64,000 nucleotides of DNA from Photobacterium iliopiscarium (GTDB lineage Bacteria; Pseudomonadota; Gammaproteobacteria; Enterobacterales; Vibrionaceae), in assembly GCF_003026395.1 (NCBI RefSeq), contig NZ_PYOO01000010.1, positions 1 to 64,000 on the forward strand, read 5' to 3'. Positions 16,260 through 29,749 of the stretch are shown here, piece after piece. The notes under the pieces are model-generated. The model did not search any database. It was not told the origin of the DNA and was given only the letters and a program-made list of their open reading frames with translations. A program made the translations under genes and the position numbers. Numbering within the stretch: the first letter of the stretch is position 1; every line of letters starts with the position of its first letter.

Positions 16260-16835
16260 ATGGCCAGTCGTGGCGTAAATAAAGTTATTCTAATCGGTAA
16301 CTTAGGAAATGATCCAGAAATTCGTTACATGCCTAGCGGTGGTGCAGTAGCTAACATTACTATTGCAACCTCTGAGTCTTGGCGTGATAAATCTACCGGT
16401 GAACAACGTGAAAAAACAGAGTGGCACCGTGTAGCATTATTTGGAAAATTAGCAGAAGTTGCTGGTGAATACCTACGTAAAGGTTCACAAGTGTACATCG
16501 AAGGCCAATTACAAACACGTAAATGGCAAAACCAGCAAGGCCAAGATCAATACACTACTGAAGTTGTTGTTCAAGGTTTTAACGGCGTAATGCAAATGTT
16601 AGGTGGCCGTAATGGTGGCCAAGGTGCGCCAATGGGTGGTCAACAACAACAGCAGAATCAAGGTAACTGGGGTCAACCTCAGCAACCGGTTGCTGCACCA
16701 CAGCAAAATTATGCACCGCAACAACCACAGCAACAGCAACAGCAACAATCGACACCACAACAGTCGGCTCCACAACAGCCACAGCAGCAATATAATGAAC
16801 CACCAATGGATTTTGACGACGATATTCCTTTTTGA
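16260..16835 (+). CDS. ssb: Single-stranded DNA-binding protein SSB
   Basis: SSB coats single-stranded DNA in replication, recombination and repair as a homotetramer. The 191-residue product has an N-terminal OB fold (about 1-110) beginning [20 protein letters not shown] long disordered linker rich in Gln, Pro and Gly (about 115-180) follows. The acidic tip DFDDDIPF is the docking peptide for partner enzymes. The linker accounts for the cag/caa-rich low-complexity DNA at 16640-16790. No terminator is visible right after the gene; the nearest matching one is beyond the island, at 28192. Confidence 0.97.
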
Positions 16836-16955
16836 CAGTTACCAAAGAGTGGTTTTTGTTAAATATTGCATATAAATCACTTTAAAACAATCTGTTATAA
16901 AAAAGTTTACATTAATTGTTGTTATTTTTGTGAACTTTTTTTATAGTTGTTTTTA

Positions 16956-16974
16956 GGTTATAGGTTACCTTGAA
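16956..16974 (+). repeat. Left terminal inverted repeat of the island
   Basis: GGTTATAGGTTACCTTGAA, reading inward. The reverse complement recurs at 28111-28128 with one base missing. It contains the sub-repeat ggttat/ggttac. It lies 121 nt after the ssb stop codon and 212 nt before the first recombinase gene. Confidence 0.7.
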
Positions 16975-17080
16975 TTATTGTAATGTTTATTGATGGGTAA
17001 TATCTTTGATAATTTAATATTTAATTTAAATTATCGACATGAAAGTGATGTCTTAATATTTTTTGTGATTTATTAAATAA

Positions 17081-17125
17081 TTGTTTATTTATATTTGATT
17101 TGATTATTAGTTAATAAATAAACAA
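17081..17125 (+). repeat. 12-bp inverted repeat upstream of the recombinase operon
   Basis: ttgtttatttat (17081-17092) and ataaataaacaa (17114-17125) are exact complements separated by 21 nt, ending 60 nt before the first recombinase start. This is the expected place for an operator or recombinase accessory site. The function is unknown, and the AT-rich sequence raises the odds of chance occurrence. Confidence 0.45.
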
Positions 17126-17185
17126 GATTTTTGATAGGTTCTTAGATTTGGTTTTACAATGTTCTATCTCTAGGGAATAAAGAGA

Positions 17186-18493
17186 ATGAAGATAAAAAAA
17201 TTTCTAATGTCAGATGGTGAGGCGTATGCAATTTTACTTGATGATAGTGGAGTTCCAATTCCTTATCCCAATTTGTTCGTAACAATAAATCATCGTAATA
17301 AGTCTGATGCAAGTAACACATGTTATTCCGTATTTGAACATATCCGATATCTTTATGAAATTTGTAGTTTTCTCAATATCGATATTGTTCAACGATGTAT
17401 TACTGGAGATTTTTTATCAAAGCAAGAAATGGAATCTCTCGTTAAGTGGGCTAAGCGCACAGTGAAGACATTTCGAGAGCATGTGGCTAGGCAAAAATCA
17501 GGAAATATTGTTTCGTTTACACCCAAGATGAAAAAACTGGAAACAGTAAGGGCGGTTATCGTTATTGATCATGACGGAGATATCTCACCAGCCACTGCTT
17601 ATAACCGTTTGACCACTTTTGCTGAATATATTGGGTGGCTTGAAGAAGTGTTATTTCCATCAAAAGATACAACTGCTGAACAATTGTTGAAGTCTCTTCG
17701 TCCCCAAAAATTCAGTAAGGCAGACGAGACGGAAAATATGGATGAGAATTATAAATCTTTGACTCCCCATCAAATCTTAAGGGTACTGGATGTTATTCGT
17801 CCAGATTCATCCGATAATCCATGGAAAAACGAATCATTACGCTATCGAAACCAACTCATCATCAATATGCTAGGAGCGATAGGCTTCCGACGAGGCGAAT
17901 TACTTAAAGTTCGACCAAGGGATGTTAAAAACCACCCTAAAAACGGGCGGCGCTATGTCACGATCCGCTCAAAGGTAGATTTAGATGACACCCGCTTGGA
18001 TAGACCTGAAGCGAAAACTTTGGGACGGCATGTGCCCATGGATAAGCGCCTGAGCGAGATGTACGACAATTACTTAATACACCACCGAAGTAATGCCAAT
18101 GGTGCCGAGTTCATCCCTTATTTGTTTGTCACTCATAACCACCGCACCTCAACCAACCAAGCACTTTCTACTGCTGCTGTTAATAAAATATGCCGTGAAA
18201 TATCGGAAGTCGTTGGCTTTAGGGTACATCCGCACGCATTCCGTCACTCTTGGAATGACAAGTTTAGTAAACATGCCGATAAACGTATTGCAGAAGGCAA
18301 AGTGTCTGAAGCTAAATCCGAAAGTGACCGTCAGAAATTAATGGGCTGGCATGAAGGTTCAAAAATGGCGCAAGAGTACAGCAAGCGTCATGATGACAAG
18401 CGTGCTTTTGAAGTTGGTATGGAACTACAAGAAGAAGAAAGCACCTTAATTAACGGGGTTGTCGGTGCTTACGATGAAGAAATTGACCAATAA
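17186..18493 (+). CDS. Tyrosine recombinase 1 of the island
   Basis: This is a site-specific DNA recombinase of 435 residues with a complete catalytic set in the C-terminal half. Arg236 lies in GFRRGELLKVRPRDV, His350-x-x-Arg353-His354 in HPHAFRHSW, Trp388-His389 in MGWHEGS, and the likely nucleophile Tyr398 in AQEYSKRH. The N-terminal ~190 residues would be the core-binding region. It is the first gene of a four-gene operon and lies just inside the left repeat. The next gene follows after 16 nt and a strong Shine-Dalgarno site. By position it may correspond to the recombinase of Gamma-Mobile-Trio modules (GmtY), but I cannot confirm the family. Confidence 0.88.
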   Translation: MKIKKFLMSDGEAYAILLDDSGVPIPYPNLFVTINHRNKSDASNTCYSVFEHIRYLYEICSFLNIDIVQRCITGDFLSKQEMESLVKWAKRTVKTFREHVARQKSGNIVSFTPKMKKLETVRAVIVIDHDGDISPATAYNRLTTFAEYIGWLEEVLFPSKDTTAEQLLKSLRPQKFSKADETENMDENYKSLTPHQILRVLDVIRPDSSDNPWKNESLRYRNQLIINMLGAIGFRRGELLKVRPRDVKNHPKNGRRYVTIRSKVDLDDTRLDRPEAKTLGRHVPMDKRLSEMYDNYLIHHRSNANGAEFIPYLFVTHNHRTSTNQALSTAAVNKICREISEVVGFRVHPHAFRHSWNDKFSKHADKRIAEGKVSEAKSESDRQKLMGWHEGSKMAQEYSKRHDDKRAFEVGMELQEEESTLINGVVGAYDEEIDQ

Positions 18494-18509
18494 TGGAGGT
18501 AATAGGTCT

Positions 18510-20051
18510 GTGCCTATTCAGCATTTAGAGCAACAAGGCAAGGTGACACTTGCTATTTCCCACAACGGATTTGAGTTTGATTATCTTCAAGATAAGTGGG
18601 TGTTAAATCGCAATGTCACTATTAATCTAGCGTTTTTGAAACAGTTTAAAGATATAGTTGCGGAAGATGTTCGTGATACATTGGTATATTTTTCTGAAAA
18701 CAATTCAGCTCCTCATGTGCGTAATTTAACTGATAATTTAAAATTGTATTTGAGCCTTAGTAAGGCTGATAACTTTTCAGAGTTAGGTTTTCTTACTTTT
18801 AAAGGGAGCTTACTTAAAAAGGATGAATATAAGCTCTCTGTGGTGAGAGGGTTTATTCGGCAGATGCGATATTTGGGGCTTAATGGCAACATTAATGAAG
18901 CTGTTTACAAGCTAACTGATCAGTGGCGCTTATCGAGTAATGAAAAAGGTGTTGCAGTTTTATCTCTCGACCCTGAAATAGGCCCATTTAGTTCGATTGA
19001 GTTTGAAGCTATTGGGCTTAATGCTGCCCACAAATATGCTGAGGGGGATCTCTCTACAGAACGCTACGCCGTTTTGTTATTGTTTAAGGCCACAGGACGA
19101 CGTACCGAACAAATAGCCTCACTAAAAGTCAGAGACTTCTCTCTTACCAGTAAATTCACTGGCAACCCAACTTATGTGGTTAATATACCGAGGATTAAGC
19201 AGCGTGGTGGTCGTTTTCGTACCCAGTTCAAACCTTTTGGTTTAGTGAAATCTGTTGGGCAAGTCATCGAGCAGCACATAAAAGAATCCATTGCAGATGT
19301 GGAAGCTCAGTTAGAGCGTAAGTTGACACCTGTGGAGCAAAGTGAATTACCGTTGTTTGTGGGCAGCAATGAAATCGACACCATGAAAACTTTGTCTGGC
19401 GAAGACTTCCTTGATTTCCTTAAATCTGAACTTTCACATATTTCAAGTTCAGCACTTAGCGGAAGGCTTGTTACTGCAACAAGTAAGCTTAAAGTGGTTT
19501 CTGAGCGTACTGGTGAACTCATTCACGTTAATCCATATCGCTTTCGATACACGCTAGGCACCCGTGCTGCCATTGAAGGTGCGGGGACACTCACCATTGC
19601 TAGGCTTCTGGATCATTCGGATACCCAAAATGTAGATGTGTATGTCGCTAATGTTCCAGAGTTCGCAATTGAAATATCTAAGATTATGAATCAGCCTTTG
19701 GCTCGTTATGCTGCCACTTTTGCTGGAAAGCTAGTGAAGGATGAGGACGAGGCAAACGAGGAAAACGCAGGTGCGACCCGTATACCGTTACGGGAAAAAG
19801 ATTGTGATGTTGGGTCGTGTGGAACAAGTGCCTTTTGCCAAGATTATGCCCCTATTGCATGTTATTTATGTCCAAAGTTTAGACCGTGGGCTAATGCACC
19901 ACATCACCTTGTTTTGCAATGGTTAATGGAAGAGCGTGAGCGATTAAAAGCAGACACCGATGATGATATGGTAGTCGTAACTATTAATGACCGTGCAATT
20001 GTTGCGGTGTGTCAAGTAATCAAGCTGTGTCAGGAGCAAAATAATGTCTAA
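18510..20051 (+). CDS. Tyrosine recombinase 2 of the island, with C-terminal Cys cluster
   Basis: This protein of 513 residues is related to phage-type integrases. The Arg box is at ATGRRTEQIASL (Arg198). The His-x-x-Arg motif is replaced by YRFRYT (Tyr343, Arg346). His369 lies in LLDHSDTQ and the nucleophile is probably Tyr378. A C-terminal extension has at least five cysteines (about residues 432-454), likely a zinc site. The frame opens at TTG 18459, but ggaggt at 18495-18500 decides for GTG 18510. The stop overlaps the next start by 8 nt (atgtctaa). The YRFRYT variant seems to be a family trait rather than decay. Confidence 0.82.
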   Translation: MPIQHLEQQGKVTLAISHNGFEFDYLQDKWVLNRNVTINLAFLKQFKDIVAEDVRDTLVYFSENNSAPHVRNLTDNLKLYLSLSKADNFSELGFLTFKGSLLKKDEYKLSVVRGFIRQMRYLGLNGNINEAVYKLTDQWRLSSNEKGVAVLSLDPEIGPFSSIEFEAIGLNAAHKYAEGDLSTERYAVLLLFKATGRRTEQIASLKVRDFSLTSKFTGNPTYVVNIPRIKQRGGRFRTQFKPFGLVKSVGQVIEQHIKESIADVEAQLERKLTPVEQSELPLFVGSNEIDTMKTLSGEDFLDFLKSELSHISSSALSGRLVTATSKLKVVSERTGELIHVNPYRFRYTLGTRAAIEGAGTLTIARLLDHSDTQNVDVYVANVPEFAIEISKIMNQPLARYAATFAGKLVKDEDEANEENAGATRIPLREKDCDVGSCGTSAFCQDYAPIACYLCPKFRPWANAPHHLVLQWLMEERERLKADTDDDMVVVTINDRAIVAVCQVIKLCQEQNNV

Positions 20052-22296
20052 TGTTTTTACATTTACTCCTCAGCACGAGCTGGAGCATAAAAAAAACCTG
20101 CAAGAATTCATTGAGCTATCTCGTCATCTGCCGCCACTAAATGATAAGTACGACTACGACAGCAACTACTGGTCGGGTGTGGGGAATTTCACCAATTTTG
20201 GTGTGTCCAATCAGGATCGCGATCCTACTAATGTCTTTGATGCATCACTACTTCCGTTTGCCAAAGCATATGTTGTCTACGGCAAGAGTACTAAAGCTGG
20301 ATTAGGCGTGAAGTTTTATGCATTGAAAGCAATAAACACGGCATGTGTTAAACAATATGGCTCTGTAAACATTACCAAATTAACTATTGGTGACTTCGAT
20401 CAGGCTGCACAAATTGCTAGGGAATCGATTGGTGCGGGGGCTGCATACCAAGCAGGTCGAGGACTTAAAAATCTGCTGAAGTTTTTGATCGAAAATAAAA
20501 TGGTGACTCCGTTCACTTGGAAAAGTCCAATCAAGAAGCCCGCAGACAATGCAACGGGCGATAAGGCAGACGAACATAGACAAAAGAAAATGCCTGATGA
20601 GAATTCTCTCATGGCACTCGCCAAAATATCTGCTGCTAAAACCCAAGATTTAAGTCCTCGGGATATCTTTACTACATCAACAATGACTTTGTTGTTTAGT
20701 GCGCCTGCCCGTGTCTCTGAGCCTTTGTATTTACGTGCTGACTGCTTGCATCTAGAGAAAATGAAAGCCAATCGAGCAATGGAATTAGGGCTGGCGAAAG
20801 AGGATATTGAGCTGCTTTTGCAAAAGCAACGTAGTGACGATGCACCTTCAAGGTTCAACTATGATGATGAAATCACGCTTAAGGGACTTCGTTGGTATTC
20901 TGGTAAGGGTTATGGGCATGAAAATAAATGGTTGCCAACGGTCATGATTGATTCTGTTACGACTGCGGTTGAGCGGCTTGAGGCGCAATCTGCCGATGCT
21001 CGTGCTTTTGCGAAAATGTTGGAAGAATCGCCTGACTTTCCTCGCCATCCTCTTTGTCCTGATGTGCCTGAAGAACAATTATTAACAAAGAACGAAGTTG
21101 CTCTGGCGTTGGGGCTAGATATATCCGTGTATGAAAAGGGTAAAAAACTTAATGGTGCTGTTAATCAACTTTTAAAGCGTAAGGGGATAGAGCGCAAAGA
21201 CTATGTGGTGAGCTTGCGAGATTTGAACAAAATTGTTCGCAGCGAGTTGCCTGAGGGCTTCCCATTTATCCCCTTTAAAAAGGGTGAAGGTAAGGTAAAA
21301 CTCAAATGGTCTGATGCATTGTACGCAGGGTTCGCAAACGCATTAGGAGCACAGAAAGTTACGTGTCACACCGAGTTGGCGATGCCAACCATCAATACGT
21401 TAAATGAAGATTTAGCGCCCACCAAGAAAAAGAACAAGAAAACGGGAGAGCTTGCTACTGGAGTTCCATCTGTATTTCAGCGTTGGGGGTATGGCGATTT
21501 ATCCTTAACCTCACATCAGTTGCGACACATGCTAGATACCATGGCTGCGGTAAATGGTATGGATGGGGAAATGCGAGCGAAGTGGGCGCAACGTTCTGAT
21601 CCGAAGCACAATCGTTACTATAACCATACGACTCCTGAAGAGTACGGTGCGGACTTCATCGAAGATCGTGAAAACGAACTTGCCACGCAAGAGCAAGCAC
21701 CTAGCACGCAAATTCAAATACAGGTTGCCACTCCTCGAACGGTTCAAGAGTTAAACACCAAGGCGTCCCTGACGGCCCACACGACCGAGTTTGGTATGTG
21801 TGTGACTTCGTATTTAAGCGAACCCTGCACCAAGTACAGGGATTGCGTTAACTGTAATGAGCATGTTTGTACCAAGGGTGATGATGGCAAATGCGAGCGT
21901 ATACGGCATCGACTGGCTCGTGAACAAAAACTCCTGAAGCAAGATAAAAAAGCGGTTGATGATGGTGTTCAGGGGGCTGAACAATGGTATCAGCGTAGAA
22001 AACTAACAACAGAGCGCTGTGAGCAACTGCTGGAAATGATGGAAGACCCAAATATCGAAGATGGTGCCTTGATCAAGCTTGCCAATGTCGAAGATGTGAC
22101 TCAACTGGATAGAGCATTGGAAGCTAATGGCAAAAAGCGTTTGCCTGAAATCGTCAATTTCAAACGTGTTCAATCTGTTTCGGTCGAGGCGCTTATCGGA
22201 AAAGCGGACGTCGAGTTACCTGAAATGGATGATAGTGTTTTTGATGACCTAGATGATTTGGATGAGCTTGATTACATGATGGAGGAAGAAGGTTAA
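20044..22296 (+). CDS. Large tyrosine recombinase 3 of the island, with Cys-rich C-terminus
   Basis: This 750-residue protein is much longer than ordinary integrases. Recombinase features are Arg223 in SAPARVSEPLYLRADC, the HQLRH motif (His491, Arg494, His495) and Tyr525/526 in NRYYNHTTPEEY. A region with six or more cysteines follows (about 586-617), likely zinc-binding, and then an acidic C-terminus. It is coupled to the preceding gene by an 8-nt overlap and to the next by a TAATG overlap. The size and position fit the GmtZ-type integrase of Gamma-Mobile-Trio modules or a Tn554 TnpB-like protein; I could not test this. Confidence 0.8.
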   Translation: MSNVFTFTPQHELEHKKNLQEFIELSRHLPPLNDKYDYDSNYWSGVGNFTNFGVSNQDRDPTNVFDASLLPFAKAYVVYGKSTKAGLGVKFYALKAINTACVKQYGSVNITKLTIGDFDQAAQIARESIGAGAAYQAGRGLKNLLKFLIENKMVTPFTWKSPIKKPADNATGDKADEHRQKKMPDENSLMALAKISAAKTQDLSPRDIFTTSTMTLLFSAPARVSEPLYLRADCLHLEKMKANRAMELGLAKEDIELLLQKQRSDDAPSRFNYDDEITLKGLRWYSGKGYGHENKWLPTVMIDSVTTAVERLEAQSADARAFAKMLEESPDFPRHPLCPDVPEEQLLTKNEVALALGLDISVYEKGKKLNGAVNQLLKRKGIERKDYVVSLRDLNKIVRSELPEGFPFIPFKKGEGKVKLKWSDALYAGFANALGAQKVTCHTELAMPTINTLNEDLAPTKKKNKKTGELATGVPSVFQRWGYGDLSLTSHQLRHMLDTMAAVNGMDGEMRAKWAQRSDPKHNRYYNHTTPEEYGADFIEDRENELATQEQAPSTQIQIQVATPRTVQELNTKASLTAHTTEFGMCVTSYLSEPCTKYRDCVNCNEHVCTKGDDGKCERIRHRLAREQKLLKQDKKAVDDGVQGAEQWYQRRKLTTERCEQLLEMMEDPNIEDGALIKLANVEDVTQLDRALEANGKKRLPEIVNFKRVQSVSVEALIGKADVELPEMDDSVFDDLDDLDELDYMMEEEG

Positions 22297-22703
22297 TGGC
22301 TAAGCATTTGACTGATAAAGATATATCAAACGTTGTTGAAGTTTTGGATGATTGGCCGACTGACTCCAAGCTTTCATGGGATAGGCTTGTTGAGGCCGTT
22401 GAACATGAATATAAGTTCAAGACAACACGGCAGACATTGCAAAAACAGAACAGGATCAAGACTGCGTTTCAGGAAGTAAAGTCGCTTGTATCGGGTAAGG
22501 TGCCTTCAAATAAGCCGAAATTGCCACCAAGCCTGAAAGTAGCCGCTGAGCGATTAGAGAAGCAGCAACGAGAAATCGAGCGATTGAAGCGAGAGAATCA
22601 GCAATTATTAGAGCAGTTTCAGGTGTGGCTTTACAACGCGTATCGTCATGGAGTAACGATTGATCAGATGAATGAGTCACTTCCTACAAAGGACAATCAG
22701 TAA
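22296..22703 (+). CDS. Small coiled-coil protein of the recombinase module (GmtX / TnpC-like)
   Basis: This 135-residue basic protein has an N-terminal part that could be helical DNA-binding (about 1-60). A heptad-like stretch follows (about residues 80-110, rich in Leu, Glu, Lys, Arg), then a conserved-looking tail with WLYNAYRHG and NESLPTKDNQ. Its start overlaps the stop of recombinase 3 (TAATG). A small coiled-coil partner after tandem tyrosine recombinases is also seen in Tn554 (TnpC) and in the Gamma-Mobile-Trio (GmtX). It probably assists target or end recognition; this is inferred from context only. Confidence 0.7.
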   Translation: MAKHLTDKDISNVVEVLDDWPTDSKLSWDRLVEAVEHEYKFKTTRQTLQKQNRIKTAFQEVKSLVSGKVPSNKPKLPPSLKVAAERLEKQQREIERLKRENQQLLEQFQVWLYNAYRHGVTIDQMNESLPTKDNQ

Positions 22704-22789
22704 ATAAGTTAGTTTGTGACGGAAGCACACTTCGTAGTTTTGTAAATAGTTAATATAATGCAACTGTTTACTACCTTTAAGGAATTTTA

Positions 22790-23353
22790 ATGACATACAA
22801 AAATGGTAACTATGCCGCATTCTACGTAGCGGAACCTTTCGATCAAGGCTCATTGGGTGCTAATGCAATTAAAGACTTCGTTTACTATAACATGCTTAAA
22901 ATGTGGAAAGGCAAAGATGCGACATTTCCTTTTAATGACTCGCACCAAAAAAATTATAACGTTCGAGATGGTAGTGATTGGGAGCTTACTTTAAAGCCAC
23001 GACTTCGGGAAAGATTAAGAAATTCGAAAAACGTAATATTGTTCTTGAGTGAAAGAACACAAAACTCAAGAGCTGTCCGTGAAGAGATGGATTATGGTAT
23101 TAACACGTTGGGTTTGCCTATTATTGTTGTCTATCCTGACTATGATAGTAAAGCTAGTCTCTTAGTAAATAATAATTTAAAACAGAGTGTTAAAGCTCTT
23201 TGGGGGAAAGTGCCTATTCTTCGAGATTCTATGCATAAAGTTCCTACAGTGCACGTTCCTATGGACAAGAATTTAATCTCATCAGCTTTGAACTCTAAAG
23301 ATTTTATGGTCGGAACATCAATTGATCCTGACGTATATATTTATCGGTTGTGA
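22790..23353 (+). CDS. thsB: Thoeris TIR-domain protein ThsB
   Basis: This is a 187-residue TIR-like protein with the ThsB-type opening YAAFYVAEPFD. It has a central WELTLKPRLRERLRNSKNVI segment, the strand VILFLSERT and the helix REEMDYGI, whose glutamates at 98/99 are the candidates for the NADase catalytic residue. The strand GLPIIVVYPD follows. In Thoeris, ThsB senses infection and turns NAD+ into a signal nucleotide; in type II systems with a macro-domain partner the signal is reported to be histidine-ADP-ribose. It starts behind aaggaatttta, 86 nt after the recombinase module, and overlaps the partner gene by 4 nt. Confidence 0.75.
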   Translation: MTYKNGNYAAFYVAEPFDQGSLGANAIKDFVYYNMLKMWKGKDATFPFNDSHQKNYNVRDGSDWELTLKPRLRERLRNSKNVILFLSERTQNSRAVREEMDYGINTLGLPIIVVYPDYDSKASLLVNNNLKQSVKALWGKVPILRDSMHKVPTVHVPMDKNLISSALNSKDFMVGTSIDPDVYIYRL

Positions 23354-24213
23354 GTGTAAATAGTAGAGGTGCAAATTTGAGTAAGGTTTCTTTTTTTGAT
23401 CGGCGAGTACTGAAATTGTACTCTGTCTACATATCTGTTATCGCTAGTATTTTTACGATAGTACTTGCATTTTTTACTTTGGACTCTAATCAAAAGTCAA
23501 CCTATGGGCTTATATTCCTTGGAGCATCCATAGTTATTTATATTTGGATCTGGTTTCGGGCAAATGATTTGAAGTCTATTGAGGTAGATATTGAAGGTAC
23601 TAAAGTTATTGTTAAAGAGGGTGACATCTTCAATGAGGATGGCCTAAAAGCGATTGCTTTCAATGAGTATTTCGATACATTGGTTGATGATAAAATTGTT
23701 GCAAAAAGAACGCTTAATGGACTATTTATAAACAAATTTTTTCTTGAGTCCACTGCGAGCTTGGATCAGTTTATCGAAGATTACTTTCAAAATGATGATG
23801 TAGAAGTAAATGAAAATCCAGCAAGGAAATCAGGTAAAACGAAAAAATACGATGCAGGAACTATCTGTGTTTATGAAGATTTTTTGCTTACAGCTTTTGC
23901 AAAGTTTGATGAACAGAATAGAGCCATACTCACTATGCCAGAGTACATCGAGTTCTTAATAAAATTTTGGGATCAAGTTAACAGAGTCTATGCACAGAAG
24001 AGTGTAGCTGTACCGATTTTTGGTTCTGGCATTACCCGAATTAAAGAGCATAAAAATATACAAGACGAAGATCTGTTGAAAATCATGCTGTGGACTTTTA
24101 GGATTAGTGAAATGAGATTTAAGCATCCAGCAAAGCTTACGATTGTTATCCATAAAGATAAGATAGATACTATCAATCTTTTTGAGATAAAGCACTCTAA
24201 CAATGGATTATAG
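23350..24213 (+). CDS. thsA: Thoeris effector ThsA, type II (two transmembrane helices plus macro domain)
   Basis: The 287-residue product starts with two hydrophobic helices (about 24-43 and 51-69). The ThsA-type macro domain follows: GDIF at 91-94, AIAFNEYFDT at 101-110, and AVPIFGSGI later, which would bind the nucleotide signal. Family knowledge says such effectors act at the membrane after ligand binding and stop growth of infected cells. The frame begins at GTG 23350, overlapping the thsB stop (GTGA). A TTG at 23377 with agaggt six bases upstream is an alternative start. A strong terminator lies 140 nt downstream, so thsB-thsA is a closed two-gene unit. Confidence 0.75.
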   Translation: MSVNSRGANLSKVSFFDRRVLKLYSVYISVIASIFTIVLAFFTLDSNQKSTYGLIFLGASIVIYIWIWFRANDLKSIEVDIEGTKVIVKEGDIFNEDGLKAIAFNEYFDTLVDDKIVAKRTLNGLFINKFFLESTASLDQFIEDYFQNDDVEVNENPARKSGKTKKYDAGTICVYEDFLLTAFAKFDEQNRAILTMPEYIEFLIKFWDQVNRVYAQKSVAVPIFGSGITRIKEHKNIQDEDLLKIMLWTFRISEMRFKHPAKLTIVIHKDKIDTINLFEIKHSNNGL

Positions 24214-24352
24214 ATTAGCTTTAAATCTTCATTTTTGTAACGTTTGAATCATCTGTGGATAAAAGTTAATGATAATCGTAACTTTTAAGCTAGGTTTTGT
24301 TTTTATAGTATTGATTTATAGGTCTTTAATCTTGATCGTGGAGTGTGTTAAT

Positions 24353-24385
24353 CGGCTATCTATTGAAAGAGATAGCCGTTTTTTT
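24353..24385 (+). terminator. Terminator of the Thoeris unit
   Basis: The perfect 9-bp stem cggctatct/agatagccg with an 8-nt loop is followed by seven T. Confidence 0.88.
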
Positions 24386-24423
24386 ATTGCAAATATTAGA
24401 ATATTTTCTCTTACACATTCACC

Positions 24424-24705
24424 TTAACTTTTGATGTCAAAATTAGTTCGAAGTAACATTGTAGATTGATAGAAAGTAGCTTTGCTATCACAGAAAACGT
24501 CTCGGAAATCCTCACAAGATTCAGCAATAAATATTATCCGTAAATTCTCAATAGTTCGGACTGTTAATCGGGTACGTAGCCAACCTGCAAAGTTTGAATC
24601 CTTTAATGCATCAATACCGTAAAACCAGATCCATGTAGAATATTCATTTTCTTCAATAACTTTATTTAGAACTTCTGATGTTCTGAAATGAGCTATAAGC
24701 GGCAT
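24424..24705 (-). CDS. Doubtful 93-residue protein in the island
   Basis: This small ORF lies opposite to all other island genes, in the gap between two operons, without overlap. The composition is protein-like, with aromatic- and Leu/Ile-rich stretches (STWIWFYGIDAL, NLRIIFIAESCEDF). It has no clear Shine-Dalgarno site and no family that I recognise. It could be a real small gene, the 3' remnant of a longer decayed cargo gene, or a chance ORF. Confidence 0.3.
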   Translation of the reverse strand: MPLIAHFRTSEVLNKVIEENEYSTWIWFYGIDALKDSNFAGWLRTRLTVRTIENLRIIFIAESCEDFRDVFCDSKATFYQSTMLLRTNFDIKS

Positions 24706-24840
24706 CAGAGTAAATAAGATAATTCTGATTTTCGAATGCGCAAGTTAATGGTGCATCTGTGTGCATTACATCATTGCTGCTTAATGCATGTACCTATAAA
24801 ATGACTGTATAACTATCAAGTAATTACGGATAAATGTTAA

Positions 24841-25878
24841 ATGGGCGGCGAAACTAAGAATATAGATGAAATGGCTCAGCTAATTTCAGATAAAATTTTT
24901 ACTGAGTTGAAATGGAAATGGAATTCAGAGTATACAGATATTAATTGGGATTGTTGCGATAGAGCACATGCTAGAAAGACACATCCTACTGATCTTGTAT
25001 TCTCGTATGTTGACCCATATACAGAACTAACTCAGTACATTCAGACAGATCTTAAGTCTTATAAGAAAGAATCGATTAGTACACAGAAAGTAGGTACAGC
25101 GATCAAAAGTCTTGCTATGCAAGTTAAGTGCGCTCGTGATAGTACTGAATGGGCAGATTATTATCGTGAAGGTGAAACTAAATACGGGCTTCATGGGATG
25201 CTGTTTATCTACAATAATGATGATAGATATGATGACGATTTGTTGGAAAAGATTGACTCAAATGCTATGCGTGACTTTGCCCTACCAAGAGACTCGACAC
25301 TAAACATCTATTCACCTCGTTTGATCCGCTTCCTAATGACTGTTGTTGAAAATATCAAAGAACGTAGAAACATAGAAGAAGATGAATCAGGATCAAATGT
25401 TTGGAAGATGATACCGAAGCGCAACAAATGTGGATTCTACTATCCTGATAAGCATAATAAGTGCTCATCTGACTCAGTGAAGCATCCTGCAACAAATGAA
25501 ATGGTCACTTCTGGTATGTTGTTGTATTCGTATGAACATCCAATTCATAAAAAGAAAGTGCTGAACATTTACTGGGATGAAGATATTATTTCAGACAATT
25601 ACTTTATCTATTTATTCGAATATATCTTTAATTATCAAATGCTTAATATGTTCGAAAAGGTCTATATCATTACTCCTTTTTCAGGGAAAGCTCCAGTGTA
25701 TTTCAATACTGCTCAGCGTTTGTATCGTGCGCAGTATGCTGTTACTGAAACACAACGTGATAAGTTGGAAAGAATTGAACTGATCGGCATGGATACGATT
25801 AAGACATCACTTTTCCCACTTCCTATTATTCTTGAAGGTGCTTGGCGTAATTTAGTCAAAGGGACTGCAAATGCTTAA
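24841..25878 (+). CDS. Uncharacterised protein with PD-(D/E)XK-like nuclease signature (operon gene 1)
   Basis: This 345-residue protein has no name that I recognise. The N-terminal part has HPTDLVF (Asp51), then IQTDLKSY with Asp70-Leu-Lys72 about 20 residues on. This is the spacing and (D/E)xK pattern of PD-(D/E)XK nucleases, followed by a helix (IKSLAMQVKCAR). The middle holds cysteines and histidines (about 195-220), and the C-terminal half is mixed alpha/beta (LNIYWDED, VYIITPFSG). It opens a three-gene operon inside a defence-carrying island, so a nuclease role in anti-phage immunity is plausible. That is inference from motif and context. The ribosome site is weak. Confidence 0.7.
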   Translation: MGGETKNIDEMAQLISDKIFTELKWKWNSEYTDINWDCCDRAHARKTHPTDLVFSYVDPYTELTQYIQTDLKSYKKESISTQKVGTAIKSLAMQVKCARDSTEWADYYREGETKYGLHGMLFIYNNDDRYDDDLLEKIDSNAMRDFALPRDSTLNIYSPRLIRFLMTVVENIKERRNIEEDESGSNVWKMIPKRNKCGFYYPDKHNKCSSDSVKHPATNEMVTSGMLLYSYEHPIHKKKVLNIYWDEDIISDNYFIYLFEYIFNYQMLNMFEKVYIITPFSGKAPVYFNTAQRLYRAQYAVTETQRDKLERIELIGMDTIKTSLFPLPIILEGAWRNLVKGTANA

Positions 25879-27073
25879 GTTTAAATCGACAATTTTCTCT
25901 GATGAAAATGATATCTATATCGCGTTGCAATCTAATAAAGCGAAACTTTCAGAAAACGCTTTACGTAAGTTAGTCTTTAAACGTGGAATAATTTATCCAA
26001 TATCATTGGATCGTGATGAATTGATTGGACACATATCAGACTTGCCGTTTTCATATTCACACTTAACAGAATTGACTAATCGTCTAACACCAAAGATTAA
26101 CCGTGATCAGTACTCAGTCAAACGTATTGCTGGTAAGTTCGACCTTTCTACCCTAAATGACGTTGTAGAAAAGGTAAAAGAAGGTCGCCCACGTTTTGTC
26201 GGTGCTGAATACATAACACCTTCACGTTCAATCCAATCATTCTATGTAGAAATTGACTACACAGAATTTGATTTTGGTCGCGGTAAGTACCAACAGAAGA
26301 AGCGACATGGTGGATACATTCAATTCTTAGAAAAGAAAAACTATATCTCAATTCAGTACACATACACAAAGCGTATTAAAGAAATACTGAATGATATTAT
26401 TAAGATGTATCGCGATACTGTTAACAAAGATTTCATAGTACAAGATGTTGATTTGTCAGCAGTACTAGATGCAGATTTAAGAAATCAGTTTATGCTTAGA
26501 TTGTATGATACGGTCAAGCCTCTTAAGTTCTTAGAACTGGAAAAGGTTCGTGTCAGTAAGGTGTATTCAATTCTTGATCCTTCATTACAAGGTGCAAGTG
26601 AAGCTTGTGCAAGTTTAGATGAAGATGTATTGGAAGATGATTTAGACAGTGATCTACTTGATGGTGATAGTGATGCTGCATCTGATGAACTTAAAGATGA
26701 ACGTGAATGCAGTATCTATAATGCTCAGTTTGATGGTCAATTACTGCATGACGCAGATGAAGTCACAGAATTCTGTAATAATAACTTCTACCGAAGTCGC
26801 ATCAAATGGTCATCTAAGGCATTGTCATTAAAAGACAAACCGATAGTAACATTTGAACTTACTTTTGATGATAAGCATCAAGCAAAAGATTTAAAATTCA
26901 GAATTATTGGTAAAGAGGCAGTTGATGGTAAAGGCGGCAAAGAGCCTGTGGATGGTGCTGACTTTAATATCATTATTCGTGAACTTGAAGATGCAATATT
27001 TAAGTCATTGGATGATGTTCTTGCATTGTATGAAGGTAGTTCAACTGATCAAAAGGAAGTAAGTAATGCTTAA
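25871..27073 (+). CDS. Uncharacterised 400-residue protein (operon gene 2)
   Basis: No family is recognised. The protein has a basic N-terminal half with strand-like segments (SFYVEIDYTEFDFG, YIQFLEKKNYISIQYTY). A strongly acidic linker (about 255-285, rich in Asp and Glu) follows, then a C-terminal alpha/beta region (PIVTFELTFDD). No transmembrane helix is seen. It starts by an 8-nt overlap with gene 1 (atgcttaa), so the two are translationally coupled and probably made in fixed ratio, as parts of one complex. It could be a recognition or regulatory partner of the gene 1 product; this is a guess. Confidence 0.72.
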   Translation: MLKFKSTIFSDENDIYIALQSNKAKLSENALRKLVFKRGIIYPISLDRDELIGHISDLPFSYSHLTELTNRLTPKINRDQYSVKRIAGKFDLSTLNDVVEKVKEGRPRFVGAEYITPSRSIQSFYVEIDYTEFDFGRGKYQQKKRHGGYIQFLEKKNYISIQYTYTKRIKEILNDIIKMYRDTVNKDFIVQDVDLSAVLDADLRNQFMLRLYDTVKPLKFLELEKVRVSKVYSILDPSLQGASEACASLDEDVLEDDLDSDLLDGDSDAASDELKDERECSIYNAQFDGQLLHDADEVTEFCNNNFYRSRIKWSSKALSLKDKPIVTFELTFDDKHQAKDLKFRIIGKEAVDGKGGKEPVDGADFNIIIRELEDAIFKSLDDVLALYEGSSTDQKEVSNA

Positions 27074-27719
27074 AGTTAAACTGTATCAATCAGGAATACA
27101 TGTAAACAAAGGTGACTTCTATGACCGCTTGAGTCAGAACTTATATTCTGATGATGAAGGTTTTGGATTTGAACTGCTTGATGACAGTGATGACAACTTT
27201 ATTATGCAGTTTATTGAACGTGTAATAAGTAAGCAAGAATTTGAACTACCAGATGGTGAAGTTTCTGAAATAGAAACTGTTTCCTATATCAAAGTGAAGT
27301 TTGGTGTTCGCTTCGGAACTAAACATGCATTGTATGTGATAAATCCACCACGTAGCATGAAATACCCATTTGAAATGATACGAACGCTGTTTGGTTCAGA
27401 TAGCGGGTTAAAACCCGTGGAACTTGATTTGAAGAAGTTATTGGATGTATTTGATATTAAGTATGACCACGTAATAAAATCTATGTCGTTGTCTAATATC
27501 CAGTGCGATCCTAATACTGTTGCTAAGACAAAGATCGCTAGCTCTAAAGACCTGAATCCGTTCTATCTGAAAAATTACAGCGAAACGCCTGCCGTAATTG
27601 ATACTGTTCACATGGTCGTGAATGGCATAGACATTGAATTGTCTCGAACAGGACGTTTCCGTATTCATAAAGATAATCTACAGACTTTCATTCTAATGCT
27701 TGACCATTCGTTTCAGTAA
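27066..27719 (+). CDS. Uncharacterised 217-residue protein (operon gene 3)
   Basis: No family is recognised. The protein is soluble and mixed alpha/beta, with an acidic N-terminal part (about 28-48) and several strand-like stretches (IKVKFGVRFGTKHALYVINPP, IDTVHMVVNGIDIEL). Like gene 2 it starts MLK inside an atgcttaa overlap with its predecessor. It is the last gene, followed 11 nt later by a terminator, so the three genes form one closed unit. Confidence 0.72.
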   Translation: MLKVKLYQSGIHVNKGDFYDRLSQNLYSDDEGFGFELLDDSDDNFIMQFIERVISKQEFELPDGEVSEIETVSYIKVKFGVRFGTKHALYVINPPRSMKYPFEMIRTLFGSDSGLKPVELDLKKLLDVFDIKYDHVIKSMSLSNIQCDPNTVAKTKIASSKDLNPFYLKNYSETPAVIDTVHMVVNGIDIELSRTGRFRIHKDNLQTFILMLDHSFQ

Positions 27720-27729
27720 AGCCTTTAAG

Positions 27730-27756
27730 CCGTTAGAAATCAATCTGACGGTTTTT
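27730..27756 (+). terminator. Terminator of the three-gene operon
   Basis: The stem ccgttaga/tctgacgg (one G-T pair) has a 6-nt loop and is followed by five T, just after the stop of operon gene 3. Confidence 0.82.
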
Positions 27757-27787
27757 CATTCTAGGCCATAGGCTGTATTTTTGTATT

Positions 27788-27817
27788 AACGCAAATATCA
27801 GGATCAGATCTTGCGTT
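27788..27817 (+). repeat. Inverted repeat in the right part of the island
   Basis: aacgcaa (27788-27794) and ttgcgtt (27811-27817) are exact complements with 16 nt between them, followed by two T. It could be a second weak terminator or part of a small RNA; no further evidence is seen. Confidence 0.35.
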
Positions 27818-28110
27818 TTGTCTGTCGGCTTTTTCTATCCCTGAGATAATTCATGAAGTACTTATTTACGATTCAATGAAACTCATTTATGACCAGAATT
27901 GTGTTACGTTTTTATCTTTTCGAAATATAACAAGACCGTTAATAATTGAAAAGTTTTTGTGTGTTATAACTAAAAATGTCTCTTTTATTGAATGTTATAA
28001 GCAGTGATTTTGTAAAGTTTAAGAGATTAAAAGAAACAAACTTAACGTAATTCTTTACTTTTTTGTTGGTTGTCCTTTTATTAACAATTACTTATATCTT
28101 GTTTTTTTTG

Positions 28111-28128
28111 TTCAAGGTAACCATAACC
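28111..28128 (-). repeat. Right terminal inverted repeat of the island
   Basis: Read inward on the - strand it is GGTTATGGTTACCTTGAA. This equals the left repeat apart from one missing A. Twelve bases (ggttaccttgaa) are uninterrupted identity. The flanking sequences outside the two repeats are unrelated. Confidence 0.7.
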
Positions 28129-28191
28129 GTTCTAGGACTGGTATACGTTAAAGTGTGAGAATAAGCACTAATACAAACAGAATTAAATACT

Positions 28192-28218
28192 AACCCAGTA
28201 TATTTACTGGGTTTTTTT
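28192..28218 (+). terminator. Terminator just outside the island, probably that of ssb
   Basis: The stem aacccagta/tactgggtt with a 4-nt loop and seven T lies 63 nt beyond the right repeat, with no gene of its own upstream on the + strand. ssb lacks a terminator before the left repeat, so this is likely the original ssb terminator displaced by the insertion. Confidence 0.85.
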
Positions 28219-28285
28219 GTGTTAAAAATATCTGACCTAAGCTAAACTATGCCTCTTTTTGTTACTTATTGATATTGTTATCTTT

Positions 28286-29749
28286 ATGAAGTATTTAGAT
28301 GTCGTTATTACATTATTATTATCTATATTACTTACTATTGGGGTTGGATATGAAAATAGAATGATGATAGCAGGTGGGTGTTTGTTTTTAGCACTGATCT
28401 TTCTGTCATCTAAATGGTGGTTAAAATGGCTGTTTATATTTCCAACTGGATTGGTGGCGGTATTATACTTTTATTCGGGTTATATTTATGGGCAACCTAA
28501 TATAGGTATTGTTGCATCGTTATTTGAAACAAATAAACGCGAAACTATTGAATTTTTATTAGCTATTCCAAGAAATGTTCAAATATTAAATGCTATTTTA
28601 TTTGTTGCATTTAGTTATTATTTAATACGAGTTAAATTTGTTTTTAAATGGCATAAAACAGTATGTCTATTTGGTTTTTTTTGTTTTTGTTTTTCGTCTT
28701 TAAATTTATTTATATATCATTCTTATACCAGTATTAACCACTATGTTGCTCAAATGAATACGTTGAAAAATAGTATTCATCAAAGCGCAAATTGGCATAT
28801 TTTAAAGAATAAACCGAGGTATAAAACTTATGTTCTCATCATTGGTGAAAGTATGCGTAAGGATTATATGTCAAGTTATGGCTATCCGATTAATAGCACG
28901 CCTTTTTTAACAACAACACCGGGAATATTGGTCAATGGTTATCTTTCTACTGCCTCTCATACTGCGGTGTCATTACCTCGAACATTAGCTATCAGTCATG
29001 GCCTAGATTTACACCCTGCAAATAATATTATCACCTTAGCCAATGTGGCTAAAATGAAAACGATATGGTTATCAAATCAAGGGTTTATTGGTCAGTATGA
29101 CACGGCTGTTTCAGCAATAGCTGTTCATGCTTCAGAACGGAAATTTTTGAAAAAAGGTAATTTTCTTACCAATAATACCAGTGATTATGCATTATTACCG
29201 TTATTTAAACAGGCATTAGCACAGCCCTATAATGGTTCAAAATTAATTGTGTTGCATATTATGGGGTCCCATGAGAATTTTTGTGATCGCATAAAAAAAG
29301 ATATTTATAATTTTAAAGATAAAGATTTATCTTGTTATTTATCAACATATAACCAAACTGATACTATTATTAAAACAATAGTTAATGATTTAAAAGCAAC
29401 CCAAGATAGTTATTCATTAATGTATTTTTCTGATCATGGTTTAAATAATGTCAGTACTATCAAAGGAAAGACACAATTAGTGCATGGTGATTTATATAAA
29501 CAAGATTATGAAGTGCCACTAATTGAAATTGCCAGTGATATTCACCAGCATACAATGTTGAATAAGCAAATTAGTGCTTTTGATTTTATGTCGATTTTCT
29601 CAAATTGGATTGGTGTTAAAACAGCACAATTACCCTCATTGAATGTTTATCAATTGCCACAAAATAAAAAGATTCAAGTATTAAACGGTAATCAGATGGT
29701 GCTATTTAAATCATTAAAAAATGATCCAGATGAAATAATTCATCGTTAA
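28286..29749 (+). CDS. Phosphoethanolamine transferase-like membrane sulfatase (EptA/CptA family)
   Basis: This inner-membrane enzyme of 487 residues has about five N-terminal transmembrane helices (to ~residue 150) and a periplasmic sulfatase-fold domain. Catalytic features are the metal-binding Glu in LIIGESMRKDYMSSYGY, the likely nucleophilic Thr in SHTAVSLPRTL, and SDHG in YFSDHGLNN, with a further His in LVHGD. Family members add phosphoethanolamine to lipid A, LPS core or other glycans. The target here is unknown, and polymyxin resistance should not be assumed. The frame opens at TTG 28259; ATG 28286 is preferred, without a clear ribosome site. It stands alone beside the island. Confidence 0.82.
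   Translation: MKYLDVVITLLLSILLTIGVGYENRMMIAGGCLFLALIFLSSKWWLKWLFIFPTGLVAVLYFYSGYIYGQPNIGIVASLFETNKRETIEFLLAIPRNVQILNAILFVAFSYYLIRVKFVFKWHKTVCLFGFFCFCFSSLNLFIYHSYTSINHYVAQMNTLKNSIHQSANWHILKNKPRYKTYVLIIGESMRKDYMSSYGYPINSTPFLTTTPGILVNGYLSTASHTAVSLPRTLAISHGLDLHPANNIITLANVAKMKTIWLSNQGFIGQYDTAVSAIAVHASERKFLKKGNFLTNNTSDYALLPLFKQALAQPYNGSKLIVLHIMGSHENFCDRIKKDIYNFKDKDLSCYLSTYNQTDTIIKTIVNDLKATQDSYSLMYFSDHGLNNVSTIKGKTQLVHGDLYKQDYEVPLIEIASDIHQHTMLNKQISAFDFMSIFSNWIGVKTAQLPSLNVYQLPQNKKIQVLNGNQMVLFKSLKNDPDEIIHR

Follow-up and report, generated by a model that had tools for sequence, protein, structure and literature searches.

A 64,000-nucleotide (nt) stretch of the Photobacterium iliopiscarium contig NZ_PYOO01000010.1 (positions 1 to 64,000 of the forward strand; hereafter the window) contains a trio of co-directional genes on the plus strand, which an original prediction had proposed as a candidate new anti-phage system. 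The three open reading frames (ORFs), here designated hp1, hp2 and hp3, lie at 24841-25878, 25871-27073 and 27066-27719 and encode proteins of 345, 400 and 217 amino acids (aa), respectively. Successive genes overlap by 8 nt, at 25871-25878 and at 27066-27073, and the same octamer, ATGCTTAA, is found at both junctions, where it contains the start of the downstream gene and the stop of the upstream one. The ORF coordinates and the octamer agree with the gene sizes, shared strand and two 8-nt overlaps that had been described.

In a comparison with PADLOC 2.0.0, the three products matched, in gene order, the profiles Hp1, Hp2 and Hp3 of the 3HP system (PDLC03004-03006; E-values of 4e-42, 8.7e-12 and 8.1e-12), and these were their only matches in that collection. 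In PHROGs they corresponded to families 7059 (Hp1, 4.8e-86), 6531 (Hp2) and 5850 (Hp3, 3.4e-35), all of unknown function, and in Pfam and NCBIfam none of the three products gave a match above cut-off. The earlier statement that the second and third products match no family is therefore correct by the cut-offs of Pfam and NCBIfam and incorrect for PADLOC and PHROGs.

The same PADLOC profiles fitted a trio from Escherichia coli (locus L009) end to end, with 792, 820 and 520 bits for Hp1, Hp2 and Hp3 (333, 359 and 227 aa). This trio is carried by P2-like prophages, in which it is flanked by the genes of the portal protein and the replication endonuclease, that is, at the P2 gpQ-gpA hotspot, where the trios of loci L002 and L214 are also located. 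Rousset et al. cloned a three-gene system from this hotspot of E. coli and reported protection against P1; in passages of that 2022 paper the system is described without clear predicted domains (PMC9122126). The DefenseFinder paper gives the name Rst_3HP and, in the portion concerned, describes the system as mostly prophage-borne (PMC9090908). Further, the three genes in a Vibrio phage record are annotated as Rst_3HP__Hp1/2/3, and the Hp1 of this record is 28% identical to the window Hp1. Equating the PADLOC profiles Hp1-Hp3, the Rst_3HP of DefenseFinder and the clone of Rousset et al. rests on the shared names, on this Vibrio phage record and on the locus. Homology assigns the window operon to the named anti-phage system 3HP (Rst_3HP), as a divergent member, and supports the anti-phage role initially proposed.

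To follow the trio beyond the window, related loci were collected in a pattern-seeded search, from which the 80 best of 101 relatives in genomes and the 80 best of 96 in viral sequences were kept (160 in total); owing to the pattern seeds and the best-80 sets, this survey gives no estimate of prevalence. The titles of the 80 genome loci retained include Verrucomicrobia, Acidobacteriaceae, cyanobacteria and Desulfobacterales. One match per profile, in the same order Hp1-Hp2-Hp3, was observed in 149 of the 160 loci, so that the linkage of the three genes exceeds chance; this number includes L148, with approximately 1.3 kb between Hp2 and Hp3, and L041 and L124, with a weak Hp3 match (1e-8). In nine of the other loci a partner was missing, in each case no more than 330 nt from where a contig ends; in the remaining two (L040 and L064) a gene was in two pieces. 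The joint conservation of the trio elsewhere, for which the original prediction had asked, was thus found.

Alignments of 82 rows (A4-A6) were built from 81 of the 149 loci, by greedy choice of one representative at 85% Hp1 identity, together with the window; L040, L064 and the nine contig-end loci were left out of them. L013, with a frame-broken Hp1, is in no alignment, and L009, which almost duplicates L002, was omitted from alignments A1-A3. With starts chosen by script, the Hp1-Hp2 junctions of all 81 representatives ranged from a 23-nt overlap to a 12-nt gap, and the Hp2-Hp3 junctions of 80 of them from a 41-nt overlap to a 20-nt gap. The identity matrices of the three proteins were correlated with r values of 0.91, 0.77 and 0.79, as against maxima of 0.08-0.11 in 999 permutations. 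The trio travels and diverges as one unit.

Among 50,697 phage records and 72,556 plasmid records, a tblastn search with Hp1 gave matches in eight and 23, respectively. DNA close to the E. coli trio was present in 18 of 5,426 E. coli genomes, and in 17 of these it covered 80% or more of the trio. The Hp1 profile was matched in four of 52 genomes of the genus, one of these matches being a short fragment, and in one of 369 genomes sampled from the class, which was that of the window itself. Homologues are carried by phages (P2-like and filamentous), by plasmids and viral contigs, and by the element of the window. Two Pseudomonas phages of only about 13 kb, L003 (OR621021.1) and L005 (OR621024.1), which are classified in the records among the filamentous Tubulavirales, each have a complete 3HP trio.

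With regard to Hp1, the original prediction had pointed to Asp51 and an Asp70-x-Lys72 motif spaced as in PD-(D/E)XK nucleases. The codons are present (24991-24993 for Asp51, 25048-25050 for Asp70 and 25054-25056 for Lys72), and E4, D51, D70 and K72 were found in all 82 rows of the Hp1 alignment, most of which are only 25-45% identical to the window protein. This invariance was not created by the search, since 55 of the 81 rows were independent of the DLKSY pattern and 55 of 81 were independent of the D51 pattern, and at such identities it is hard to explain without catalysis. In an AlphaFold2 model of Hp1 with a predicted local distance difference test (pLDDT) value of 87.3, in agreement with the motif, residues ~1-159 are predicted to adopt the PD-(D/E)XK nuclease fold, with the motif on strands 47-57 and 64-74, and a C-terminal domain (~160-320) looks Rpb5-jaw/Cap4-like.

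The alpha-beta core of this model resembles known PD-(D/E)XK members, with middling fold scores. In Foldseek, where 344 PDB and 657 viral matches were obtained at E-values up to 10 and none at 0.001 or below, the best match was HamA, the Hachiman nuclease (E 1.8e-3, probability 0.90), and the VIA scores were 7.0 for FokI, 6.6 for Nt.BspD6I, 5.8 for both SduA and Card1, and 5.6 for HamA. Chains of Card1, Can2, Cdn1, Cap4 and Avs3 were also among the fold matches. No Pfam nuclease family was matched by Hp1, and RefSeq labels the E. coli Hp1 as a PD-(D/E)XK nuclease domain-containing protein. Pfam matches of Hp1 homologues to 5-hmdU DNA kinase 2 (three of 82) and other scattered families were taken as noise. 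Motif and predicted fold together suggest that Hp1 is a putative PD-(D/E)XK nuclease.

The model of Hp2 (pLDDT 86.9) consists of a helical N-terminal domain (residues 2-72) and a body (~77-392) that is predicted to be RdgC/Iml3/CENP-N-like. The very acidic linker noticed earlier in one of the products was located in this second protein, at residues ~246-281, and in the model it falls in a low-confidence loop (~239-283). The first five VIA ranks were taken by RdgC (11.3 and 10.9) and Iml3 (8.9, 8.7 and 8.4, the last being chain L of 6qld), in alignments that cover residues 76-380 and barely reach the helical domain. The first four Foldseek ranks were CENP-N or chain N of kinetochore complexes (probability 1.00, E 1.7e-4 to 5.3e-4), and the sixth was RexA of phage lambda. 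In passages of two papers, RdgC, RexA, Iml3 and Chl4 are grouped as one DNA-binding fold (PMC11077077, PMC4080450), and part of another describes how CENP-N contacts DNA through its helical domain and the CLN-HD (PMC5777823).

At the sequence level, hhalign gave a score of 22.6 for the Hp2 body, with the loop columns dropped, against RdgC, which none of 60 column shuffles reached and to which unrelated families, a control of eight families only, came as close as 21.1. Profile searches of solved structures with Hp1, Hp2 and Hp3 yielded nothing useful. Matches to Pfam DUF4518 were observed in ten of the 82 Hp2 members, the best at 1.5e-5.

Judged by eye, the sequence of Hp3 may contain two alpha-beta units similar to the ones in Hp2. 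Hp2 and Hp3 were rejected as sequence-detectable paralogues, given that their score of 16.6 was reached by two of 60 shuffles and an unrelated family scored 27.2 against Hp2. The hhalign alignment of Hp3 with RdgC is colinear over 197 columns from residue 1, with a probability of 2.45% and a score of 22.3; none of 60 shuffles attained this score, which is just above those of the eight unrelated real families. A label in one phage record calls Hp3 an RdgC-like exonuclease, and we did not retain this as established, as the hhalign probabilities were 0.6-2.5%. A CENP-L match in Pfam was obtained for one of 82 Hp3 members (E 0.0074), amid other scattered matches, and a single-protein Hp3 scan of viral contigs, covering eight stretches, found no relative.

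Taking these results together, we consider it reasonably probable that the operon is a 3HP member, sited beside a Thoeris system on a recombinase-trio element, that works as a DNA clamp with a nuclease, its three products acting, as we infer, as one DNA-targeting complex. Hp2 would form a clamp gripping the DNA or closing around it, probably as a pair with Hp3, in the way that CENP-N pairs with CENP-L or RdgC with itself. Hp1 would join this clamp and, through its PD-(D/E)XK site and a metal ion, may cleave the clamped DNA, so that incoming phage or mobile-element DNA would be destroyed. The model agrees with a ring like that of RdgC or a pair like CENP-N:L, and with the finding that in the 160 loci the putative nuclease gene is without a partner only near contig ends. 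RdgC and RexA are homodimers and Iml3-Chl4 is a heterodimer, according to part of a paper on this group (PMC11077077).

Several points weigh against the clamp and nuclease. The proposed mechanism relies on homology, linkage, motif and predicted folds. The fold scores of Hp1 are middling, the TM-scores are low for the Hp1 and Hp2 models alike, and the part assigned to Hp3 comes from its sequence. Further, DNA binding and exclusion by RexA do not go together, as stated in part of the same paper (PMC11077077).

The main rival uses the same parts for abortive infection: once infection is sensed, Hp1 would attack host DNA (or RNA) and the cell would die before phage release. Card1, Can2, Cdn1, Cap4 and Avs3, chains of which are among the fold matches of Hp1, are signal- or target-triggered defence effectors. 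Rousset et al. propose that a different system at this hotspot may work by cell suicide (PMC9122126). However, no sensor or signal-producing family was found in the trio, and the predicted clamp look of Hp2 suits direct DNA targeting, so that we regard abortive infection as possible but rather unlikely.

It is less likely again, and in our view improbable, that Hp1 is a non-cutting protein with a structural or RNA-directed role, and that the RdgC/RexA-like proteins are DNA-binding regulators which block the recombination or replication of phages or their lytic switch. RdgC dampens the activity of RecA, and the lambda switch is biased by RexA, as part of one paper reports (PMC11077077), and the nuclease likeness of Hp1 consists of a motif and middling fold scores; the four residues invariant across divergent Hp1 proteins nevertheless speak against a non-cutting Hp1. 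A role in upkeep of the element rather than in defence, for example exclusion of a competing plasmid or prophage, would suit the range of phages, plasmids and other elements on which homologues reside. It appears very improbable as the sole role, given that the cloned E. coli member protects against P1, as recorded in the passages cited above (PMC9122126), but the two roles are compatible. Finally, the original prediction's new defence system, without a name or known relatives, which the lack of above-cut-off Pfam and NCBIfam matches had favoured, is ruled out to near certainty by the in-order PADLOC matches of all three genes, the alignment with a record annotated Rst_3HP and the fit of the E. 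coli trio, for which there is experimental support. A match of all three genes to a defence system that already has a name was among the outcomes that the original prediction itself had listed as refuting it.

The operon is carried by an element of approximately 11.3 kb (16829-28127) that is inserted at the 3' end of ssb, as evidenced by empty sites in loci L216-L218. These are the closest genus relatives found, with ~85-91% identity over the left flank, and in them ssb is directly joined to the DNA that in the window lies to the right of the trio. The matches to positions 16825 and 28127 of the window stop one base apart in L218, which places the insertion at ~16829 to 28127. The last codons of ssb are preserved (DDDIPF tail, with D-I-P-F-stop on the left side), and the element ends, inspected by eye, share an inverted GTTACC. 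In addition, a 12-bp exact inverted repeat is present at 16963-16974 and 28111-28122; its left arm lies ~130 bp inside the apparent left end, as if it were a subterminal copy of the right-end site. Right of the insertion, a 496-aa ORF (28259-29749) looks by eye like a sulfatase-type membrane protein, and in L216-L218 DNA matching this region adjoins ssb without the insert.

The carrier genes occupy 17186-22703 on the plus strand. Tyrosine recombinase genes are located at 17186 and 18459, followed by genes for a 750-aa product (at 20044) and a 135-aa product (at 22296). The first recombinase matched PF00589 at 5.1e-9 and the second at 4.5e-6 (27.0 bits, against a cut-off of 27.1); the second also matched NF041502 (1.7e-175). 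By eye the 750-aa product looks like a third recombinase, with a PF00589 value of 0.048, below cut-off. The island that had been inferred is therefore a real insertion, shown by empty sites in three relatives, but not a GMT island by the NCBIfam GmtY model, for which the first recombinase scored 24.9 bits against a cut-off of 340. The order and overlaps of the four genes fit the intA-tfp-intB-srap order of SE elements, and on this likeness of gene order we call the carrier SE/GInt-like. Recombinases similar to these were found near a 3HP trio in two of 172 other loci (L002-L173). In L069 (1-9819, Photobacterium kishitanii), all four carrier genes, at 26-32% identity, are located just upstream of the trio, and in L084 parts of two are present; L069 indicates that recombinase carrier and 3HP cargo have paired more than once.

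Within the element, the trio follows a Thoeris system, as had been noted: thsB (TIR; 22790-23353, plus strand) matched PF08937 at 4.5e-26 and PADLOC ThsB at 7.2e-75, and thsA (Macro domain; 23350-24213, plus strand) matched PF20016 at 2.1e-61 and PADLOC ThsA at 2.5e-116. A terminator on each side of the trio had also been claimed. In a consensus scan, terminator-like hairpins were detected on the plus strand 3' of thsA (24353-24378) and 3' of hp3 (27727-27754). The former, however, is 462 nt away from the trio, with an ORF in between, and the five such sites in 22300-28400, against a shuffle mean of 2.8 (standard deviation 1.8), give them little weight; flanking terminators are plausible on weak evidence. 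The intervening ORF (24424-24705, minus strand, 93 aa) had no Pfam match and is possibly a gene remnant. Unannotated stretches with 34-37% identity to it were observed in three of 72,556 plasmid records (Proteus, Providencia and Photobacterium).

What is new here is a divergent 3HP member; the system itself was already known. Within a literature scope of mostly non-subscription articles, no paper on the mechanism of 3HP was found by title or abstract opening, nor was the clamp-plus-nuclease idea. The nuclease-plus-clamp model makes that mechanism experimentally addressable. If Hp2 and Hp3 are truly CENP-N/L-like, 3HP would be a nuclease-armed branch of the RdgC/RexA/Iml3-Chl4 group, and phage defence would be tied to kinetochore origins. 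A bolder proposal, which we hold to be doubtful, is that 3HP is the prokaryotic counterpart of CENP-N:CENP-L, in which Hp2, with its helical domain and clamp body, and Hp3, a clamp body alone, would make up a heterodimeric DNA clamp that loads a PD-(D/E)XK nuclease on foreign DNA. The kinetochore pair and this clamp would share one ancestral DNA-gripping fold. If so, a part of chromosome segregation and a part of phage defence would be cousins. The window's own case is of smaller value: it provides a divergent 3HP member that neighbours Thoeris on a mobile element of another kind.

Compared with known systems, the trio differs from Hachiman in that no helicase family and no HamB partner were found in it with Pfam, PADLOC or NCBIfam, and Hp1 differs from HamA in its additional C-terminal domain, the absence of a sequence match and a low TM-score (0.20). 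Unlike the RdgC/RexA/Iml3-Chl4 (CENP-L-CENP-N) proteins, to which it has no convincing sequence similarity, Hp2 carries an acidic loop and is linked to a putative nuclease gene. The carrier resembles SE/GInt elements, in the part of the source that describes them, in its overlapping recombinase genes at the left end with a fourth, small gene beside them, one-site insertion and imperfect inverted ends, whereas its second gene, at 530 aa, is shorter than the 550-aa limit given there for Tfp (PMC10214605). The closest likeness is to 3HP itself: gene content, order, strand, coupling and approximate sizes are all alike, and three profiles match. The window proteins have nonetheless diverged from the trio of the P2-like phage locus L002 (32% identity for Hp1, 18% for Hp2 and 21% for Hp3), Hp2 has 400 aa with an acidic loop instead of 359 aa, and the copy resides on a recombinase-trio element next to Thoeris instead of on a P2-like phage.

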